This document shows, one piece after another, positions 3,484-33,000 of a stretch of DNA of 64,000 nt; positions within the stretch are counted from its first letter, which is position 1; every line of letters starts with the position of its first letter. The translations under genes and the position numbers were made by a program. Origin of the DNA: Saccharomycodes ludwigii (Eukaryota; Ascomycota; Saccharomycetes; Saccharomycodales; Saccharomycodaceae); the NCBI RefSeq assembly GCF_020623625.1, contig NC_060205.1, forward strand, positions 1,047,501 through 1,111,500, in the 5' to 3' direction. The notes under the pieces were generated by a model, which was not told the DNA's origin, ran no database searches, and saw only the letters and a program-made list of their open reading frames with translations.

Positions 3484-4212
3484 ATGGCATATAATAGTTC
3501 TTCAAGAACAGACGATAATCCTGATGACTCATTACCTTCATATGAAGACGTTTTAAGGGAAGATAGAAATGCTGGTAAATTTGAAACTAATAATAACAAT
3601 AATAATAATAATAATAATAGTGGCAATAACTCTACTAATAGCAGCATTAACACTACTCAGCGTAGTAATAATTCTTCCCATAACCAACATCATCATACAT
3701 CCAGCAATAGATCATACACTACAAGAAGTAGAACTAGGATACCATGGACTTATCCTAATTCATATTATTGCTCGAAATGTGAAAATACAGGCTTTAAGAA
3801 GAGAAACGGTGAAAAGTGTTCTAAATGCTGGCAACGATTTGGTCCCCTATTACCACCAAAAGGAGATAGCAATAAGCATAAAAAGGGTCATCTACTGTCA
3901 TCCAAAGCACCTCCAAAAAAGTTATACATGCCACCAGATTCAGAAGATTATTCTAATAATACATACCAACAGTCGATAGAAAGACCCTTTAGGACCCAAG
4001 CAACACCTAATATGGTGATGAACAGACCAAAAGTAATTCGGACAGGGGGTAATTATGGTTTTCAACAAGCACAGCCACAAGGACTAGTAGTACAACCCGG
4101 TGATCCGAGAATCGGTGGCAGATTGTGTGCGGAATGTAGGGGTACTGGTAGGATAAGTTTTTTTTTGGACTTTAAATTATGTCCAGTATGTGGTGGTGTA
4201 GGGAGAGTGTTT

Positions 4213-6015: not shown

Positions 6016-7821
6016 CTAAATGATAAATTTGGGAGTCTCATGTAATTTTGGATTAGCATTTATAGAGTTGCCGTTGGTGACAGAAGTGGCAGCAGTAGGA
6101 GTCACTGTCAAGCTAGGCGTAACTACATTACCGAAAGAATTCATTAAAGCATTTTTATTATTATCATTATCCATCACACTACCATTGGAAGTGGAAACAG
6201 TGGTGGAGGTACCAGGTATAATCATAAGTTGTGAACTCGTTCTTGATAATTCTGGAGAAGTGTTGAAATTAGAACTACTTTCAGGTGTAACACTGTAAAC
6301 ACCATTCATCAAATATTTATCTGGTAATCCTGGTCCAATTTTAAATGTACTATGCAAGTTTTTATTTGACAAAGGCTCTCCTTGTGATAAAGCTTTCATA
6401 GAAAGTGTTCTTTTTAAAGTGTCTCTTATTTTGGATATTTTCTCCATTTCCTGATCATGACGCTTTCTACTAGTAGCCATATCTTTAATACTTGTGGTGC
6501 TACTATTGTTGCTGCTGCTACTAGTAAAGTTAGTTGCACCAGTATGATATATACTACTAGTTCTGCTTGGTGATCCTAGTCTCCTCAAAGAGGTGGATGA
6601 CTTACATCTCTTGGATTTGCTCGTTAATCCTAGAGTGTTATTAAGATTACTCGTATTGTTCGAAGAATTGTTAATATTACCGGTAGAAATGTTCTCATTG
6701 TTATACAGAGGTATCTTATTATCATAACTTCCATTGATGGTGGCGAAAAACTTGCTTACAAATGGATGACAGGCTAATTGATGAACGCTTGGTCTTTCTT
6801 TACTATTTACAATAAAAGTCTGTTTCAAAAAACTAATAAAAAGTTCATCCTCTGTCCCTGGAGGGGTATCGGTTTCTTCCAAATAATAATCCCCAGTAGC
6901 AATACAATCCAAAGTTTCCTTGTCAGTCTCACAATCAAAAGGCATATACCCAAACCCCATAAAATAACTTAAAACACCCAATGCCCAAATATCAACTTTA
7001 TAATCATAAGGTTCACATGACTCACCGGCACCTTTGCACCTGACTATTTGTGGTGATATATATGAAATAGTTCCCACATACTCCCTTAAATCAACAACGT
7101 TGCTAATAGTAGTTGCCAAACCAAAATCAGCAATGATCAAATCATGTGAAGCTAAATCATACTTACTGTTAAGCAGATGATGAGGATTTATATTCTCGGT
7201 AAACTTATCAACTTTGGCAACATCTTTTTTTCTAAACAAAATATTCTCAGCTTTAATGTCTCTGTGTACTATCCCTTGATCGTGCAAAAACTGTAAAGCG
7301 CTCAACAAACATGCTGTATATGGCTTAACTTGTCTTTCCAAGTCTAATTTCCCACTCTCTATAATAACATCGTACAAATCTCTTTTGTTACACAATTGGG
7401 TAACTAACACAATATGATCCTTAGTTTCAAAAAAATCAAATAATTGTAAAATATGATGATGACCTTCAAAAATGGCAGTATTGCGGAAAAAATCAGTTTT
7501 CCCTTGCTTGTTATCAGTTTCTGGTTCTTGTTCGAGTCTAACAACTTCCTGTCTTAAATATCTTAAAATACCAACTTCTCTTTGAATTAAACGTATTTTG
7601 TTAACTAATAAATCCTTACGGACCAACTTCATGGCAAATATATCGTTTGTTTGTCTGTTTATACATTCCTTAACTGTACTGAAATGACCATCACCTAGAC
7701 TATCTTTTTTACAAATATATTTACATGTAGAGGATACAAGGTTATTAGTATTCCCTTTACCCCCTTCATGCGGATTTGATAATATTGGCCAAGGATCTAT
7801 ACTTTTATAATTGAAAACCAT
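6016..7821 (-). CDS. TDA1: Tda1-like CAMK-group protein kinase
   Basis: 601-residue Ser/Thr kinase matching S. cerevisiae Tda1 (586), which acts in glucose signalling, including hexokinase 2 phosphorylation. The kinase domain spans about residues 35-330: glycine loop SLGDGHFSTVKE, Lys65 in FAMKLVRK, EGHHHILQLFDFFET, HRDIKAEN (186-193), ADFGLA (231-236), GTISYISPQIV (250-260) and VDIWALGVL. The C-terminal tail keeps the Tda1 block IRDTLKRTLSM and the Phe-Asn-Thr-Ser-Pro patch. One oddity is that the APE motif reads SPQ. I chose the ATG at 7821 rather than the one at 8109: the extra 96 residues are intergenic-like with a poly-Lys run, and the A-rich leader typical of this genome sits directly before 7821. 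In S. cerevisiae TDA1 is next to GOT1. Confidence 0.93.
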   Translation of the reverse strand: MVFNYKSIDPWPILSNPHEGGKGNTNNLVSSTCKYICKKDSLGDGHFSTVKECINRQTNDIFAMKLVRKDLLVNKIRLIQREVGILRYLRQEVVRLEQEPETDNKQGKTDFFRNTAIFEGHHHILQLFDFFETKDHIVLVTQLCNKRDLYDVIIESGKLDLERQVKPYTACLLSALQFLHDQGIVHRDIKAENILFRKKDVAKVDKFTENINPHHLLNSKYDLASHDLIIADFGLATTISNVVDLREYVGTISYISPQIVRCKGAGESCEPYDYKVDIWALGVLSYFMGFGYMPFDCETDKETLDCIATGDYYLEETDTPPGTEDELFISFLKQTFIVNSKERPSVHQLACHPFVSKFFATINGSYDNKIPLYNNENISTGNINNSSNNTSNLNNTLGLTSKSKRCKSSTSLRRLGSPSRTSSIYHTGATNFTSSSSNNSSTTSIKDMATSRKRHDQEMEKISKIRDTLKRTLSMKALSQGEPLSNKNLHSTFKIGPGLPDKYLMNGVYSVTPESSSNFNTSPELSRTSSQLMIIPGTSTTVSTSNGSVMDNDNNKNALMNSFGNVVTPSLTVTPTAATSVTNGNSINANPKLHETPKFII

Positions 7822-8394
7822 TTTATTTATGTGTTTACTGTCAATTGTTTTTTTTTTTTTTTTTTTTTCTTTTAATGTGGTTTCAATTAAAAGTTGAGAT
7901 TTTAGTAAATGGTTTGTATATCTGGTAATAGGTGTATAGGTATGGAAGGGAAGGAAGGGATTGAAAGAATTAAAGGAATTAGTAGAAAGAAGCAAATAAC
8001 ATATATTTATATCCCCTTTTATATTATTGCTACTATTTATTATTTTTAACAAGGAAAATAACTTTAAAAATAAAAATAAAATAAAAGTCACTCGCCTGAT
8101 GATTAACATCCTCCTTGTTGCTTTTTTCCCCCCGTATAAAAAATCTTGACATTTTTTTTTATTTTTTAATCTCGTGATTTAGAAATCCTTGCCTTGCAAC
8201 ATCCTTACATCCTTTGTTCTATTTTCCAAATTCAAATTGCCTAAAAATATCGCCAAAAGTTAACTATCATTTCAATACAATATCTTACAATATACTTAAA
8301 AAAATCATTGTTATACATAGCTAGGTACAATAACATCATCCCCCACCATTATATATACACGATACAATAACTTTGCAAGATCAAATGCTATAGT
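7822..8394. other. divergent promoter region, TDA1 / IRC3
   Basis: It holds the T-rich tract at 7848-7869 (the A-rich leader of TDA1), then ordinary AT-rich DNA. An ATG at 8109 opens the TDA1 frame early but gives low-quality sequence. A very short upstream ORF (ATG CTA TAG) ends just before the IRC3 start. I see no clear factor site. Confidence 0.5.
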
Positions 8395-15874: not shown

Positions 15875-15934
15875 ACAACTCCAAAATCAATCTACTTTTC
15901 TTTGTTACTACAATAGTATACAAAGATAATTCAC

Positions 15935-18517
15935 ATGACATCAAAAGATAATAATGAATCATCAAAGTCATCACCTCAACAACAAGTCGAACAAAAACAC
16001 CATCAGCACAAACCAACACCTTTAAATATAACAGATTCACATATTAATACTGCCCCATTCCCACTTCTATCTACCGCCATAAGTAGAACCACTACTTCTA
16101 ATCAATCATCTCCACAGCATGATGAAGTCTGTGATAATTTAAAGCTAATTGAAGATTTAAAGTTTTTTTTGGCAACTGCTCCAGCAAATTGGCAGGAAAA
16201 TCAAATTATTAGAAGATACTATTTAAGCAATGATGACGGATTCATATCGTGTGTATTTTGGAATAATTTGTATTATATAACAGGAACTGATATCGTTAGA
16301 TGTTGTTTATATAGGATGGAAAAATTCGGCAGAAAAATTATTGATAAAAAAAAGTTTGAAGAAGGTATATTTTCAGACCTAAGAAATTTGAAAACCGGAC
16401 AAGATGCAACTTTGGAACAACCAAAATCAGATTTCTTGCAGTTTTTACACAAAAACATGTGTTTAAGAACTCAGAAGAAACAAAAAGTCTTTTTTTGGTT
16501 CAGTGTTCAACATGATAAAATATTTGCCGACGCACTAGAAAGGGATTTAAAAAGGGAACTTATCGGTCAAAAATCTACAACTATGGCTATGAAGGAACCA
16601 GCACTATCCTTTAAATATAGTGAGGTTTCTAATTCTACACTTTACGACCAATTAGCTACACATATGGATTTCAAAAGAATGATTACACCATTAAATAGTG
16701 GTGGTATCGAGAATGATAGTAATAATAATAATAATACTGCTTTGAATCCCGATACCAAAAATGACAACAATAAACCGGTTGACCAAAATCATATACATTC
16801 TACCGTTTCTCATTTGACAAATATCAGCGCCAATGGGAATATAGTGCCGCAGGAGCTGATGAACCATAGTAACATAAGAACACAAAATTTGATGGAAAAT
16901 AACACTTCTGCTGTTAAATTAACATTAGATACCTCTCTAAGTACCTCAAATATTAAAGGTTTGCCTCAACACACTTCTGCAACCTTATATCCTTCTCCTA
17001 ATCAATTATATAAAACGGCATTAAAAAAGTTAACATCTGGACTTAGTATGGAAAATAAATTACTAAATATCACTGCAGAGCCGCAGAAACCTCAGTCTAA
17101 TGAAGATTCCACCACAAAAAAATGTAAAAAAATGGCAAATGTCAATGCAGATAATAAAACTACCGGTGAGAATGAAGAAACCGCAGATGTCACAATACAA
17201 CAGGATTTGGAACATGAAGGCAGTGAGGAGGATAGTCATAGACAACCCACATTTAAAAAAAATTATTTAAATGAAGATGATTTCCCATTAGATTATTTCC
17301 CAATTGAAATTGAATATCCTAAAAGTGCCAAAGAGCAAGAAACCCCCGCTTTTAAAAAAATAACCACTTCCTTTTTTTATGACAATATAGACAATTTACA
17401 ACCGCAACCATTGCACTCAGCCTTGTCTTCTAATAATGCCAACGGTTATGGAGTAGCCATTATCCCACCAAATTCTTCTAAATCGGCACACCATTCTATC
17501 GTGACTGAAGACGTTTTGAATGTTGTTGGACTGGAAGAAGAAAAGAAACCCCTGAAACAATTTACTGTGCAACATGATCAGCAAGGCAATGCCACTTCTA
17601 TTGAGCCACAAGTTATCGAGGCCGATGCTGACGCTGATATCATAACGAATAACCCAGTAACTACCACTTTAATGGAAAATGCTGAAAATAACGAAAATTT
17701 TGTGTTAAATACTAAAGAGCATGTAATTAATAAATCAATTAATTTAGAGGTACCACCACAAGACTATTCAGTCCAACAGCATAATTTTTTGGATTATATT
17801 ACTGCCACTAATGCTAATGCTTATGAGCAATATTTATTTGCCAATTATTACCAGTTGCATCCATATACGTCTGGATTATCGCAACCTGCTTTCCCATATT
17901 GTGGGTTTGCTCCACCAGCTTTGCCATCTCAATCCTATTATCCACCAGATCTTTTATATGGTGCAGCTGCTGCTGCTGCTGCATTTGCTCCTAATAATAA
18001 TAGTAATAATAACAATAATAATGGTGGTGGTGGTGGTAGTGTCTCTGCCTGCAATAATAACAATAATGGATTTCAACAACAACTTTTCCAAAATACTTTA
18101 GTGCCAAAAGATAATGGATCTGGAGTAAAAATGACAAGGGAAAATATCAACAATGCCAGTGTTAATAAATATGATAATGACAATGATAGTGATGAACACT
18201 TAGTTCCACAAAGTATCAACGTTCCAATGAATGTTAATAATATGAATAACAATAATGGGGGTATGCTAACTGGTATATATCCACAGTTTACACCCTTGTA
18301 TAATAGATTTTTTCCATATCCAATGATGAGTACCTCTCCGATCACTGCTATTCCACCAAACATTACAGTTAACAATGTACCACCACAATTTAATTCTGGC
18401 GTTCAAATCAATCCTAGTCAACAAATATTATTACAACAACAGCAACAAAAACAGAAATCGCATGCTACTGGTAATACCACTGGAAAAGTTTACAAAAAGA
18501 ACAATACTCATAAATAA
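15935..18517 (+). CDS. STE12: Ste12, mating and filamentation transcription factor
   Basis: 860 residues, against 688 in S. cerevisiae. The homeodomain-like STE DNA-binding domain spans about residues 68-215 and is nearly identical to the yeast protein, with blocks such as LKFFLATAPANWQENQIIRR, FWNNLYYITGTDIVRCCLYR, FEEGIFSDLRNLK and KKQKVFFWFSVQHDK. The remainder is low-complexity: Asn-, Gln- and Pro-rich, with runs of Ala (about 675-681), Asn and Gly. This fits the activation and Dig1/2-binding region. It carries no zinc fingers, as in the Saccharomyces type. In the nucleus it binds TGAAACA elements downstream of the pheromone MAP kinase cascade, and its own upstream region has three such sites. 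Neighbours SAM35 and, after RQC1, IPI1 match S. cerevisiae order. Confidence 0.97.
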   Translation: MTSKDNNESSKSSPQQQVEQKHHQHKPTPLNITDSHINTAPFPLLSTAISRTTTSNQSSPQHDEVCDNLKLIEDLKFFLATAPANWQENQIIRRYYLSNDDGFISCVFWNNLYYITGTDIVRCCLYRMEKFGRKIIDKKKFEEGIFSDLRNLKTGQDATLEQPKSDFLQFLHKNMCLRTQKKQKVFFWFSVQHDKIFADALERDLKRELIGQKSTTMAMKEPALSFKYSEVSNSTLYDQLATHMDFKRMITPLNSGGIENDSNNNNNTALNPDTKNDNNKPVDQNHIHSTVSHLTNISANGNIVPQELMNHSNIRTQNLMENNTSAVKLTLDTSLSTSNIKGLPQHTSATLYPSPNQLYKTALKKLTSGLSMENKLLNITAEPQKPQSNEDSTTKKCKKMANVNADNKTTGENEETADVTIQQDLEHEGSEEDSHRQPTFKKNYLNEDDFPLDYFPIEIEYPKSAKEQETPAFKKITTSFFYDNIDNLQPQPLHSALSSNNANGYGVAIIPPNSSKSAHHSIVTEDVLNVVGLEEEKKPLKQFTVQHDQQGNATSIEPQVIEADADADIITNNPVTTTLMENAENNENFVLNTKEHVINKSINLEVPPQDYSVQQHNFLDYITATNANAYEQYLFANYYQLHPYTSGLSQPAFPYCGFAPPALPSQSYYPPDLLYGAAAAAAAFAPNNNSNNNNNNGGGGGSVSACNNNNNGFQQQLFQNTLVPKDNGSGVKMTRENINNASVNKYDNDNDSDEHLVPQSINVPMNVNNMNNNNGGMLTGIYPQFTPLYNRFFPYPMMSTSPITAIPPNITVNNVPPQFNSGVQINPSQQILLQQQQQKQKSHATGNTTGKVYKKNNTHK

Positions 18518-19136: not shown

Positions 19137-21406
19137 TCATTCTTGAGCCATGTTTTCATTTTGTTGGATATATTCTTGTAATGATAATTGTTGGATTCTA
19201 TTCATAATGTCTTCATCTTGTAACAAGCTTGCAGCATATTGGTTCAAATCTTTTTCTTTGATAAAGGAACTTATGTCTTCTAAAATTTCTGCATCTTCAT
19301 TAGTATGTGGTCTCGGTGGTAACAAGTCATATTCTAATAATTGGTAATTGTCAAACAACTTGGTAGGTAGCTTTGCCATCAATGAAGATTCATGAGATAA
19401 CACAACAAACCTTATTAAATTTATAGGAATGTTATAAATAAAATAGTCATCAGTAGCATCGCTATCATCATTCTCTTTCATATACGGTTTGATTTTGGAT
19501 TTGTTTTCCATGTCACCTAAAATTCCCTTTATTTCAGCAACCAAAAAGTTAATATATTCCATAGTGTATATTTCACTGTTAGTCTTCCTAATTTCATACA
19601 AGGCCAATTGAATGATATCTATTTGGTTCAAGTCTTCGTTGCTTGGAACGTCCAAATCAACATCGATATGTGTTAATTTAGACAAAAAGGAAAGTAGTAA
19701 ATAAATAAAGCTGTCATTAGTATTATTATTATTATTATCCTGGTTTAAAACTTGTGAGTGGATAAATGCCTTGCACTCTGTCAACATGTCCATTTTGTAG
19801 TACGCATAAATAATACTCATTGTTAAATTAAAAGTTTTCCACTCCTCATATTGATTAAATAATCGACACCTGCTCAATTTTATTAGAAATTCATAATCTT
19901 TATCCAAGATCAGGTAGTAATCAATGAAATACCTACAACCATATGGATCATTGGTTGGATTAATGGACCACAAAACTTTAGACCATTCAGCCGCAGTGTG
20001 AAAAGCACCTCTACCAGTTAAGTTTTGGATATGTCTAAAACAGGCTAGATAGAACAATCTGTTATAAAAAAATGTAAAGGGCAATTGACAATCAACACCG
20101 TTGAAAAGTATACCATTTTTAAAACAACGGTCAAAAACGAAAAGCGCTTTTTCTACCATATCGTTGCTATGCGTTCTACCATCGCTACTTTGAACAGTGA
20201 AAATCCATGCAACTTGTAACAACGCAGGGATAGAATATGGAAATTTTGATGAAACCAAATTAATAACGGCTTCATGATCTGGTTTCAAAACAACACTTAG
20301 ATAGAAATCAGTTAACATTTTGCTGTTTTGATCAACATCTAAGGGTTCAAATCTGTAATAACGTAAATTTGAGGCCAAATATGCAGCATCCTGTTCTATA
20401 ACATCATTCCAATCATTGGGTCTTTGCCATTGTAATATGTGACTCAATTCTTTTTTGGTTAATGCTTTCATAATCAACTCTCCTCTTATAGTTGGTAACC
20501 AGTGGTTTTTGATTCTAGAAAATTGCAAAATTCTGGTTAAAGATGGACCTTGTGGTACAATTTTCATATTGCTACCATTTCTACCGCCCCAATTTTTGGT
20601 AAATTTCTTCAATTTTTGTAAATTTCTAAAACTAGCTGCAGACATATTTGACTGTGCAGTATCATTTCTGTTATCACCGTTCCCTTCAACGTCTTTCAAT
20701 ACATCATTAGAAAGATCATCAAATAGATTTTTATATTCATTTTCAATATCTAGATTGGAAAACTTAAAAGAGCCAAACAATTCCGAAAAATCATGAACAT
20801 GAGAAGTATAATGAGTAAAACCAGGATCTTGTCTAACGGATAATGTTGAAGAGGAAATGTTGCAAGATTGATTGATAACACTACCACCTTTTTCTTTCTT
20901 TGATAGATTCATTTTAACGGTTTTCTTTTGAAAGTCTAATAGTATATTGTCAAATTCTCTATCATTGTTTTGATTTTCGTCCCCTGTATCCGCATCATTG
21001 TTATCTAAGTTGTTAATGTCTGTATTACAATTTTTTTTTGTTGAATTATTCTTTTGGGTATTTTTTTTTTATTTTTTTTTTCCCTTTTCTTGGCCTTTTT
21101 ACTTTTAAGGTTTATGAAAGAAGGAGAAGAAGAATTTGGTACGGTTTCTTTACTTGGAATATCATATGTGACTTTTTCTTCAAAAATTGTATCATCGTTG
21201 TTGTTAGCTTCCTCCTCATCACCGTCATCATCATCATCATCATCATCTTTTCCAATTAATGAAAATATATTAATGTTTTTGGTATTGTTGTTGTTTTGGC
21301 TAACCTCTTTTTCAGTATTTTCCTCTTGTGTGTTATTAGTACCTAAAGATGCGAGTAGTGATAATTCATCATCTTTTTTCAATTTCCTTAATGTTCTGGA
21401 ACTCAT
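19137..21406 (-). CDS. RQC1: Rqc1, ribosome quality control subunit (frame change near the N-terminus)
   Basis: Tcf25-family member of the ribosome quality control complex, acting with Ltn1 and Rqc2 on stalled 60S nascent chains. Two open frames make up the gene. The N-terminal part (21406 down to about 21050) starts MSSRTLRKLKKDDE like S. cerevisiae Rqc1 and runs into a Lys-rich stretch. The rest, in another frame, contains REFDNILLDFQKK, KKFTKNWGGRNG, ILQFSRIKNHWLPTIRGEL, LVSSKFPYSIPALLQVAWIF and the IPINLIRFVVLSHESSLMAKLP block, all matching Rqc1 to its C-terminus. The frames overlap at 21005-21068, which holds A9 and much of an A10 run on the coding strand. Changing frame there needs a -1 shift, or one missing base. 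Total is about 755 residues, against 723. A sequencing length error in a homopolymer is the simplest cause; see findings for the alternative. Confidence 0.9.
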
Positions 21407-21846
21407 GTTTTCTTGTTTTTTTTTTTTTTTCTTTTTTCTTTTTTCTTTTTTCTTAGCTGTTTGAATTGTTCTCCTGTAAAGTGTTGATTTTTAAGGAAAG
21501 ATAAAAAAAAAAGAAGAAAAAAAGAAAACTAAAAAAAAAAAAAAAAAAAAAAAAAAAAGAAAAAAAAGTATATACCAAGTCCGATATCCGCAAATAAAAA
21601 TTTTCTCGGAATTAAAATGAAATATAATAGAGCATAAAAAGAAACGTTAAAAATAATAAAAATAATAATAATAATCTTAATGAGATCTTGTTAAGCTTTT
21701 GTTCCATTACCATTTTAAAGACTCAACTATCGTTAGGTTTAAAAAAAAAAAAGAATAATCTATTTATCTAGTAACCGGTTATTTCAATATCTAAAAAAGA
21801 AATCAATAATTATAATTTAGAACTAACTGCTGAAAGAATTTTACAA
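21407..21846. other. divergent promoter region, RQC1 / IPI1
   Basis: It contains T/A tracts (A run at about 21533-21558) and a GTCCGA motif at 21579-21584 placed about 170 nt from the RQC1 start and 265 nt from IPI1. No gene. Confidence 0.55.
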
Positions 21847-22956
21847 ATGTCGAAGAAAAAGAAAACCGTTAAGCAACAAGATTTTCAAAAGAAAAAATTG
21901 AAAATAGGTAAGGGAAAAGTTCAACCTAGCAATATCACAAACACATCCTTTGTTAGTAAACAAATCAAATTACCTAACCAGAATAAATTAACAAGTAACA
22001 CAAGGGCTACAAATTTACCAACTCTTGATTCAGTTAAAAAACTAATTGCTAACAAACTATTGTTGTTAACACATTATTCTCCCAACGTAAGAAAGGACAG
22101 CTTACAAGTTATAAGCAAAAATATCAAAATATTAAATGAAAGTTGTAATACTAATAATAATGCATTAGTTAATGGTATACTTAATAAAAGTTTTAAACTA
22201 ATGTGTGATGATGATAAAGACGTAAGAAATGCATATGCAGAATTGTTAATTGAAATTTGTGAAACTTACGACAATGGTAGATTGTTATTAGAACTAAATT
22301 TAGACAAGTTAGTTTTATATTTATTTAATGCAATGACACATATAACATTTGGTATTAAGACAAATTCCGGTATGTTTCTCAAGATATTATGCAAATATTG
22401 TCCTGGTGATATATTGGTTAGAAGATATTTTATCAAAGTGTTAAACACTTTTTTACCGGTTTTGGGTTGGAGTATTGACAACAGTGATGGTGGTAGTAGT
22501 AACAATACCAATACAAGTAGTAATATAGTTGTAATTAATAAAAATGTTAAAAGTAAAATAATTAATTTGGAGGCATTAACCTGGTTTATCAAGATGGGTA
22601 TAGAAGAAAAAGATGGAAAGGAAATGGGGAAAGAGGGAGATGATAATTTTAATTACAATAAAATAGTATTTAAGAAATATTTATTACCAGAATATCCTCA
22701 ACCATATAAACATTTAAAGTTGTACGAACGGGATGTTAATATGGTGGCAGGTAGTGTTGCAGATAGTAAGACCAATACGCTACAAGATTTATTAAATTTA
22801 TCGATGGAAGATTATAATACAAGATTAGATATTTTTAATCGATATTATAAGCCACTAATTGAGCCACATTTAAACCAATTGATTAAAGAGGGAGGAGAAT
22901 TGGGTAAGATGACTAATAATTGTTTAAAATTGGTTTCAGGAGATGGTAGGATTTAA
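21847..22956 (+). CDS. IPI1: Ipi1, Rix1-complex pre-60S maturation factor
   Basis: 369 residues, against 334 in S. cerevisiae. Ipi1 works with Ipi3 and Rix1 in nucleoplasmic 60S maturation (ITS2 processing) and in pre-replicative complex assembly. The basic N-terminus KKKTVKQQDFQKKKLKIGKGK followed by NTSFVSKQIKLPNQ is the family signature (Tex10/Ipi1 type). The HEAT-like helices after it include LLTHYSPNVRKDSLQVI and CDDDKDVRNAYAELLIEI. The C-terminal YPQPYKHLKLYERDV block also matches. An Asn/Ser insertion lies near residue 215. IPI1 and NAM8 follow STE12 as in S. cerevisiae YHR084-086, with RQC1 in between. Confidence 0.93.
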   Translation: MSKKKKTVKQQDFQKKKLKIGKGKVQPSNITNTSFVSKQIKLPNQNKLTSNTRATNLPTLDSVKKLIANKLLLLTHYSPNVRKDSLQVISKNIKILNESCNTNNNALVNGILNKSFKLMCDDDKDVRNAYAELLIEICETYDNGRLLLELNLDKLVLYLFNAMTHITFGIKTNSGMFLKILCKYCPGDILVRRYFIKVLNTFLPVLGWSIDNSDGGSSNNTNTSSNIVVINKNVKSKIINLEALTWFIKMGIEEKDGKEMGKEGDDNFNYNKIVFKKYLLPEYPQPYKHLKLYERDVNMVAGSVADSKTNTLQDLLNLSMEDYNTRLDIFNRYYKPLIEPHLNQLIKEGGELGKMTNNCLKLVSGDGRI

Positions 22957-27310: not shown

Positions 27311-28303
27311 TCATGCTATGCCAATCAGCTTCAAATTTTTAATAACCCTTAAAATTAAAGTAAGACCAGCTACACCAGTAGCAGCAATAGCTGCTAAACA
27401 TAAAGGTAAAAATATACCTTGAGTTATTAAACAAAAAGAAATTAATGTGGCAACACAAGTCAACACAAATCCAATATCAGAAAAGATATCACTAATGGCA
27501 GTTAAAGCACCATTAATATCATTATCCTTTAAATAAGGCTCGATTTTAACACCAATAAATTTGCCAACAATTTCACCAATAATTTCTTCATTTTTAGTTG
27601 AAGTATATTTAATTGAATCCGGTATTTCAAGGGTACTGCCGATGTTATCAGTTTGTAAAGCTTCCATAATGGCTTTTAATTTTTTTATATGGGTTCTAAA
27701 CTTGGTATCTGATTCTTTAGTAAGGCGATGGGTTTTTTTTTTCAACCTGTACAAGTCATGTTTTAAATCTTTCAAAATATCTTTTTCATTATCGAGAATA
27801 TTATTATAAATCCTTAAAAACCCGATATCTTGACTTTTAATTTTAGTGGGTAATTTTTCCAATTGAAATAATAATTCTTTTAAATCATCTTTAACAGACG
27901 TTAAACTGAAACCCGTATCTAAATCAAAATCTTCATTTACTGCAGTGTCAACAGACTCATTATATTTGAACAAATAATAAATTTCAGCAATATCTTCACT
28001 TATGACACTAATGGTATCAGTACTTGAATCAAATACCTCAGAACTAATTCCATCCGAACCAAATAACATTGGCAAGATAGAGGCTGAAATCATATCTCCA
28101 CTAGTTTTTTTAAAATTAAAAGGCTTTTTTTTATCACTAATATAATAATCAACTATATTTCTTGATGAAAATTGATCATTAATTGAAGCTATCCATTTGG
28201 TTGTATCTGGATCTTCGATATAAGCAGCACCAGAAGTTTTTGAAAAAACTAAAATATTAAGTACAAATAAAATACTGGATATTAATAAATTTGAAAACCG
28301 CAT
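27311..28303 (-). CDS. unrecognised secreted or membrane protein (orphan)
   Basis: 330 residues; I do not recognise a family. Visible features: an N-terminal signal peptide (basic start, hydrophobic residues 5-20, likely cut near SGA at 24-26); a polar, acidic region; a Lys-rich helical stretch (about 150-220) with coiled-coil-like spacing; and a long hydrophobic segment (about 274-322) that could form two membrane helices or a hairpin, ending in a short basic tail. Only one internal Cys pair lies in the hydrophobic part, and few N-glycosylation sites are present. The codon use and AT content look like the neighbours, so it is probably expressed. It sits between SNM1 and PEX29, which are adjacent in S. 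cerevisiae, so it is a lineage-specific gain or a gene lost elsewhere. Function is unknown. Confidence 0.75.
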   Translation of the reverse strand: MRFSNLLISSILFVLNILVFSKTSGAAYIEDPDTTKWIASINDQFSSRNIVDYYISDKKKPFNFKKTSGDMISASILPMLFGSDGISSEVFDSSTDTISVISEDIAEIYYLFKYNESVDTAVNEDFDLDTGFSLTSVKDDLKELLFQLEKLPTKIKSQDIGFLRIYNNILDNEKDILKDLKHDLYRLKKKTHRLTKESDTKFRTHIKKLKAIMEALQTDNIGSTLEIPDSIKYTSTKNEEIIGEIVGKFIGVKIEPYLKDNDINGALTAISDIFSDIGFVLTCVATLISFCLITQGIFLPLCLAAIAATGVAGLTLILRVIKNLKLIGIA

Positions 28304-31863: not shown

Positions 31864-33000
31864 ATGTTCCAAGTTATCGATGAACAAGACGATATAGTAT
31901 CTTCTCTAAATGTACATACTAATAACAATAAAACTATAATAACTACCACCAATTGGAAGGGAGAATTGAGACTCTATGATGCAGATAATAGTAACACAAC
32001 TACCACCTCTACTAATAAACCATATCTTATAGACAATTTACAATTTAAATATCCTTTGTTATCGTGTGATCCTATAACTGCATACAAATATTATCTAGGT
32101 GATGTTCAAGGCAATATCATACATTTAGACTACAATTATGATACCCCTGTAGTTAACACAATAACCAAGAATAAAAATGCAGTAACATCCGATAAAGCTT
32201 TAGGTATTTGTAGTATTAAAAACGATCCTCGTTTATCCTTACTTATAACGAGTTCATGGAATGGTGTGATTAATCTCATTGATTATAGAACAGATTTAGT
32301 TGAAAATTCCTTACAACTTACACTTGATAGCAACAGTACAAATAATCAAATACAAAAACAATGTAAGATATTCAATATGGACTACAATTCGAATAGTAAT
32401 TTACTAGTTTCAACAATAACCAATAACCTAGTTGATATACGAGATATTAGAAAATTAGATACACCCTATCAGTTGAGAGAAAGTGGCTTGAGAGATCAGG
32501 TACGAGATCTGAAAATAATGCCAAATGGCTCAGGGTTTGCACAAAGTTCAATGGCTGGTAGGGTGGCTATTGAATATTTCAATAATAATGATAATTGTAA
32601 ACTGAAATATGGTTTTAGATGCCACAGAATTAATTTAAAAGACATGGATTTTGTGTATCCTGTTAACTCCATCTGTTTTGGTGGAGTAGGTACAGCGAAT
32701 AGCACACCTCATGGCAATAATATTTTATATACAGGTGGAAGCGATGGCGTTGTTAATAAATGGGATTACATTAAAAAAAAAAAATTGAAAACGTTCAAGA
32801 ATTTCAATATAGCCAATACAGACAATGAAAATAATATTCAAGTCAATAATGACAACCAAAGTGTTGTCAAATTGGCCTGTAATGAAAAGTTTTTAGTTGT
32901 AGCCACGTCAGATGATTCTTATAAAACATATCCATCCATTATACCAAATGAAGATGGTTTGTTTTTGAGTAAAAGCAAAATCTACATGCATCACATTTAA
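31864..33000 (+). CDS. BUB3: Bub3, spindle checkpoint WD40 protein
   Basis: Kinetochore WD40 propeller that binds Bub1/Mad3 and phosphorylated Spc105 to run the spindle assembly checkpoint. 378 residues, against 341. Matching pieces are the blade near residue 30 (TTNWKGELRLYD), FKYPLLSCD, YLGDVQGNIIHLD, LGICSIKND, SSWNGVINLIDYR, GLRDQVRDLKIMPNG, MAGRVAIEYF, the hallmark FRCHRINLKDMDFVYPVNSI and LYTGGSDGVVNKWD. The insertions are short Asn/Thr runs. STI1 follows two genes downstream, as YOR026W-YOR027W, with RKM4 between. Confidence 0.96.
   Translation: MFQVIDEQDDIVSSLNVHTNNNKTIITTTNWKGELRLYDADNSNTTTTSTNKPYLIDNLQFKYPLLSCDPITAYKYYLGDVQGNIIHLDYNYDTPVVNTITKNKNAVTSDKALGICSIKNDPRLSLLITSSWNGVINLIDYRTDLVENSLQLTLDSNSTNNQIQKQCKIFNMDYNSNSNLLVSTITNNLVDIRDIRKLDTPYQLRESGLRDQVRDLKIMPNGSGFAQSSMAGRVAIEYFNNNDNCKLKYGFRCHRINLKDMDFVYPVNSICFGGVGTANSTPHGNNILYTGGSDGVVNKWDYIKKKKLKTFKNFNIANTDNENNIQVNNDNQSVVKLACNEKFLVVATSDDSYKTYPSIIPNEDGLFLSKSKIYMHHI

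Follow-up and report, generated by a model that had tools for sequence, protein, structure and literature searches.

The DNA analysed here, hereafter referred to as the window, is a stretch of 64,000 nucleotides at positions 1,047,501-1,111,500 of contig 6 of Saccharomycodes ludwigii, in which the minus strand carries RQC1, flanked by STE12 and IPI1. These two neighbors were named on the basis of their Pfam families. RQC1 itself is divided between two overlapping reading frames, ORF1 and ORF2, which meet in a tract of A-rich coding sequence. The features of the locus are listed below.

15917-18514: STE12 (Pfam STE)
19137-21068, minus strand: RQC1 ORF2, open for 643 codons at -1 relative to ORF1 and containing the whole Tcf25 domain
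20910-20912, minus strand: earliest ATG in frame with ORF2; initiation here, if it occurs, would give a protein with Tcf25 but lacking the N-terminus
21005-21406, minus strand: RQC1 ORF1, 133 codons from an ATG at 21406, the Rqc1 N-terminus ending in a basic tract
21031-21039, minus strand: A9 (run 3), alternative site of the frame change
21061-21070, minus strand: A10 (run 2), read in frame 0 as AAA AAA AAA A, weakly favoured site of the frame change
21069-21071, minus strand: TAA closing the ORF2 frame where runs 1 and 2 meet, the 5' bound of the frame change
21072-21081, minus strand: A10 (run 1), where a -1 slip terminates at once
21416-21430, minus strand: A15 in the RQC1 leader, 9 bases 5' of the ATG
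21775-22953: IPI1 (Pfam Ipi1_N)

ORF1 closes in frame 0 with a stop at 21005-21007, and the frame of ORF2 is offset from the RQC1 ATG by +338, i.e., by -1 or +2. The claim of the initial annotation that the start and the remainder of the gene are in different frames was thus confirmed, with 133 codons in one frame and 643 in the other. Over these 133 + 643 codons we found no second lesion, neither a further stop nor a frame break, and long decay as a pseudogene was set low for this reason. A domain search of the whole genome (12,500,424 bases in 8 contigs) returned a single copy of RQC1. A-rich leaders of the length of the A15 run may affect initiation; the coding strand of the leader also carries T28, T10, and T8 further 5' of that run.

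Elsewhere in the window, the genes at 2378-2956 and 3484-4212, both on the plus strand, have similar starts (PPSY and LPSY) and Cys-rich ends, and are probably tandem paralogues. Both show weak matches to DnaJ-type zinc fingers below the curated cut-off, and a third PPSY protein is encoded at 236-664 on the minus strand.

Homology of the two parts to Rqc1

The reference for the comparison was chain v of PDB 9ofv, which we take to be S. cerevisiae Rqc1 (presumably YDR333C). Residues 10-639 of ORF2 align with residues 99-717 of this chain (E 3.9e-131), and the Tcf25 match of ORF2 covers profile positions 4-337 of 337 (PF04910, E 5.2e-64). The first 67 residues of ORF1 match residues 1-71 of Rqc1, with identity in 29 of 74 columns (BLASTP, single comparison, E 9e-7). 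A shuffling test was run in four versions, some including the basic tail and some omitting it, and in every version none of 2000 shuffles attained the alignment score. ORF1 alone, when searched against all PDB chains, did not retrieve Rqc1 at E <= 10; the joined ORF1 and ORF2 query aligns with Rqc1 from residue 1. ORF1 carries the N-terminus with a basic tract that is characteristic of Rqc1, and the single open reading frame expected of the RQC1/Tcf25 family is replaced here by two frames, -1 apart. Because both parts are homologous to Rqc1 and the joined protein aligns from the first residue, the two ORFs belong to one gene and the frame change is truly present in the assembly. The Tcf25 domain and the homology of both parts also support the earlier identification of the gene as RQC1. 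Comparison of ORF2 with viral_contigs in search of relatives gave six pattern matches, none of which was confirmed.

Interval and direction of the frame change

In coding-strand orientation, the junction consists of A10-T-A10, 21 bases, and A9, and the tract from 21031 to 21081 is 78% A. From the ATG to 20700, no other A run is as long as runs 1, 2, and 3. The ORF2 frame is shut by the TAA at 21069-21071 and frame 0 is shut at 21005, which confines a single -1 change to 21070-21005. Within this interval, the slip-prone sequences are run 2 and run 3. A shift in run 1 was excluded, as the -1 frame meets the TAA after one codon. A +1 slip in runs 1, 2, and 3 leads to a stop after 8, 5, and 2 codons, respectively, and a -1 (equivalently +2) slip in run 2 or run 3 is the only one among the slips examined that opens a long frame, of 641 or 631 codons. 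Past the frame change, ORF1 would continue for 18 wrong-frame codons (run 2) or 8 (run 3) before its stop. Between runs 2 and 3, the 7-8 codons score +2.67 in the ORF2 frame versus -1.44 in frame 0, which points to run 2, and we weakly favour this run over run 3. The initial annotation had placed a -1 change at 21005-21068, with an A-AAA-AAA slippery step in runs of A9 and A10. The runs are present on the coding strand, the sign of the change holds, and the interval is sharpened to 21070-21005.

We considered whether the two frames could be joined by an intron. On paper, 60 GT-AG pairs would restore the frame, but none of the 60 has a GTATGT-like donor. TACTAAC is absent between 21406 and 20700, where TACTAAT at 21341 and AGCTAAC at 21209 are present, and the homology and the basic tract continue up to the junction, making an intron scarcely credible.

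Alternatively, the locus could yield two products, a short peptide from ORF1 and a shortened Rqc1 from the ATG at 20912. This ATG has an A at -3 and would keep the whole of Tcf25. However, a ribosome scanning from the RQC1 start meets 16 other ATGs first, three of them between 20998 and 20965, and both the homology and the coding score of the first 60 codons of ORF2 (+0.38 per codon) support translation in the ORF2 frame upstream of 20912. We regard this arrangement as highly improbable as an explanation of the locus; initiation at the internal ATG is compatible with a broken allele and does not exclude it.

Homopolymer runs and disrupted genes in the assembly

According to the available text of the genome report, the NBRC 1722 reference is haploid and was assembled from approximately 200x PacBio RS II coverage with HGAP/Quiver, followed by Pilon polishing with Illumina MiSeq reads from the same DNA sample as the PacBio reads (PMC8567612). 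A haploid strain with deep PacBio coverage and Illumina polishing makes a sequencing error less likely than was initially assumed.

As a control, we scanned for frame changes at homopolymer runs in 264 kb, consisting of 200 kb from the start of contig 6 (the arm, with 5,000 letters masked) and the 64-kb window. Nine settings combined flanks of 120, 150, and 180 bases with coding-score thresholds of 0, 5, and 8, using a coding model that is mildly circular, since its 87 training ORFs came from these 264 kb and included ORF2. For A runs of at least 9, RQC1 was the sole gene flagged in seven of the nine settings, and it alone was flagged at any run in five (150/5, 150/8, and the three at 180). 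Where flanks of 150 bases were free of stops and each had a codon-usage score above 5, seven such A runs were intact (4 in the arm and 3 in the window), and none apart from the two in RQC1 were broken. Since the window was picked for RQC1, the unbiased figure at this setting is that of the arm, with 0 broken versus 4 intact. The number of intact runs varied from 4 to 14 by setting, a small sample that leaves the rate of such breaks poorly bounded. Nevertheless, the seven settings in which RQC1 stands alone indicate that the assembly looks mostly clean.

The other flags were few. At 120/0 they comprised arm 103515 (T8), 195295 (A7), and 127818 (A25), and window 15224 (A11); arm 195295 and 127818 were flagged again at 120/5, arm 195295 at 120/8, and arm 96302 (A7) at 150/0. 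Those in A runs of at least 9 (A25 and A11) occurred in two settings. By eye, one frame is open across the run at 96302 and 195295, 103515 lies just 5' of a gene start, and the flanks of 127818 and 15224 are low-complexity or frame-poor. To judge by eye, none of these five places is a clear second case, although arm 195295 (contig 6, L021), which was flagged in all three 120-base settings, stays doubtful and may be nothing. Without a score threshold, a flank of 150 bases yielded 25 rows, one of 180 yielded 14, and one of 240 yielded 4, the two RQC1 rows included; all other rows scored below zero for coding on one or both sides. A general scan at any sequence found 14,147 positions with both flanks coding, which fell into 7 clusters, one of them RQC1. 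One of the six others is an in-frame TAG in an aminotransferase gene identified by Pfam, and the remaining ones, judged by eye, may be frames antisense to repetitive genes or the normal end of a gene.

Long A runs as such are common. In 91 ORFs with 178,137 coding bases we counted 24 A runs of at least 9, a number that is in frame by construction and therefore shows merely that such runs are tolerated. Examples in the window are A12 at 32773 (ORF 31864-32997, plus strand) and A10 at 27733 (ORF 27314-28303, minus strand). Some of these runs (e.g., A21 and A23) lie near the predicted start and may be non-coding; A21 is found near codon 80 of ORF 6019-8109 (minus strand), upstream of the best-matched part of its kinase domain (residues 216-451). 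The A10-T-A10 motif occurs 224 times in the genome, counting both strands (116 + 108), so the RQC1 tract itself is not rare.

The aminotransferase gene is a class-III member (PF00202, profile 16-344 of 403) near the chromosome end, close to the start of contig 6 (L002:7726-8868). Its in-frame TAG lies inside the domain, is not tied to a long homopolymer, and is followed by at least 58 further open codons, which gave no Pfam match when these 58 codons were searched alone. This second disrupted gene in the same assembly suggests that disrupted alleles may occur in NBRC 1722.

We also examined the genes of the ribosome-rescue pathway, which we named RQC2, LTN1, HEL2, VMS1, and MBF1 on the basis of their Pfam families. 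Open frames of 988, 1607, 736, 701, and 152 aa, respectively, were found, each with one domain match without an internal stop, as judged at the matched domains in one domain search per gene. The pathway thus seems to be kept, which argues against a long-dead RQC1.

Origin of the frame change and comparison with known systems

The initial annotation raised the idea that expression of RQC1 requires slippage. In this case, all full-length Rqc1 would come from an extra A inserted by the polymerase, or from a -1 slip of the ribosome, in run 2 or 3, and the level of Rqc1 would follow the state of ribosome rescue, in a manner comparable to release factor 2 and antizyme. Several observations fit this idea. 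A_AAA_AAA, a heptamer of the form X_XXY_YYZ, is in phase in runs 2 and 3 (which is trivial for runs made up of A only), a -1 slip in either run is the sole outcome that gives the long frame, a long A run (A10 or A9) of the kind looked for in transcriptional slippage sits at the frame change, and the five pathway genes show their matches without internal stops. In the accessible text of a study on poly-A tracts, a reporter one A short (A28) reached 42.4% of the in-frame A29 in MDCK/COS-7 cells, and one that was one A long reached 9.8%; the direction fits RQC1, but these tracts have 28-30 A's (PMC3520932).

Other evidence speaks against it. Downstream structure is absent: three stretches gave minimum free energies of -3.7, -2.7, and -2.8 kcal/mol with z-scores of +0.53, +1.13, and +1.58, i.e., weaker than the shuffle mean, in a model of pseudoknot-free folds. 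In the part available of a recent account, the four chromosomal genes of S. cerevisiae named as needing frameshifting for their full-length product are all +1 cases (PMC12719033). To judge by their titles, Jacobs 2007 and Belew 2011 report -1 signals in this yeast. In E. coli extract, robust sliding product was obtained with A11 and little with A9 or A10, as stated in the portion available of that work (PMC4363877). Because of the missing downstream structure and the little sliding at A9 and A10, required slippage is not favoured, and we consider it unlikely.

In a stronger form of this idea, full-length Rqc1 would arise solely from slippage at its own poly-A/poly-Lys tract, forming a feedback loop. 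When rescue falls short of capacity, stalled ribosomes would linger and slip by -1 more often, yielding more Rqc1; when rescue is ample, stalled ribosomes would be cleared and less Rqc1 would be made. The annotation had also noted that self-control of Rqc1 through its N-terminal basic tract is disputed, and this dispute was indeed found: the available text of one study reports that S. cerevisiae Rqc1 is not a co-translational RQC target and that Rqc1 and polybasic proteins are not RQC targets (PMC8102910). We judge the feedback form to be very unlikely. In literature searches on RQC1 frameshifting or autoregulation and on S. ludwigii frameshifts, the case is untreated in the titles and abstract openings of the matches listed.

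The explanation that we prefer is a one-base change in the length of an A run in an otherwise intact, conserved RQC1, which, taking a real allele and a consensus error together, is very probably correct. The initial annotation regarded a one-base homopolymer error as the plainest account; such an error retains a substantial share of the probability, weakened by the polished haploid assembly and the control. We consider a real, recent replication-slippage mutation in NBRC 1722 quite possible and a residual consensus error a little less so, and most likely the two share the probability in roughly equal parts. A length change at A10 needs nothing beyond the usual behavior of A runs, so no special cause has to be invoked. 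As to the origin of the change, the run involved, and any leaky expression, we infer that the A10 at 21061-21070 (or, less likely, the A9 at 21031-21039) has a length that puts the frame off by one base. A real allele would yield mostly a 133-residue fragment, and some full-length Rqc1 could still be produced through one-base slips of RNA polymerase or the ribosome within that run. Loss of Rqc1 alone would be odd given that the five pathway genes are open at their matched domains, which weighs against the allele, although S. cerevisiae can live without RQC1.

A consensus error or a private allele would be of interest only for annotation and as a reason for caution with RQC phenotypes in NBRC 1722. 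Slippage that proved both required and conserved would make RQC1 a chromosomal yeast gene recoded by -1 and would place a loop of self-control within ribosome quality control; it would also touch on the dispute over what the Rqc1 basic tract does. The feedback, if true, would parallel in a eukaryote that of release factor 2, with the lesion that Rqc1 handles as its basis.

The S. ludwigii gene resembles S. cerevisiae Rqc1 over nearly its full length, in the MSSR.LR.L N-terminus, NIFS, the basic tract, and Tcf25, whereas Rqc1 of S. cerevisiae is one chain and that of S. ludwigii consists of two frames joined at poly-A. Like OAZ1, EST3, ABP140, and YFS1, the cases of programmed frameshifting in yeast, RQC1 presents a functional gene in two overlapping frames; in the available text, these four shift by +1 at other shift sites (PMC12719033), whereas RQC1 would need -1. 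A further likeness in form is to the dog RPGRIP1 poly-A tract (PMC3520932) and the Buchnera A-tract genes (PMC5009743), in which, as described in the accessible parts of both reports, the frame is also broken inside an A run and slippage could restore it. In contrast to the RQC1 runs, which have just 9-10 A's, these tracts are reported to slip.
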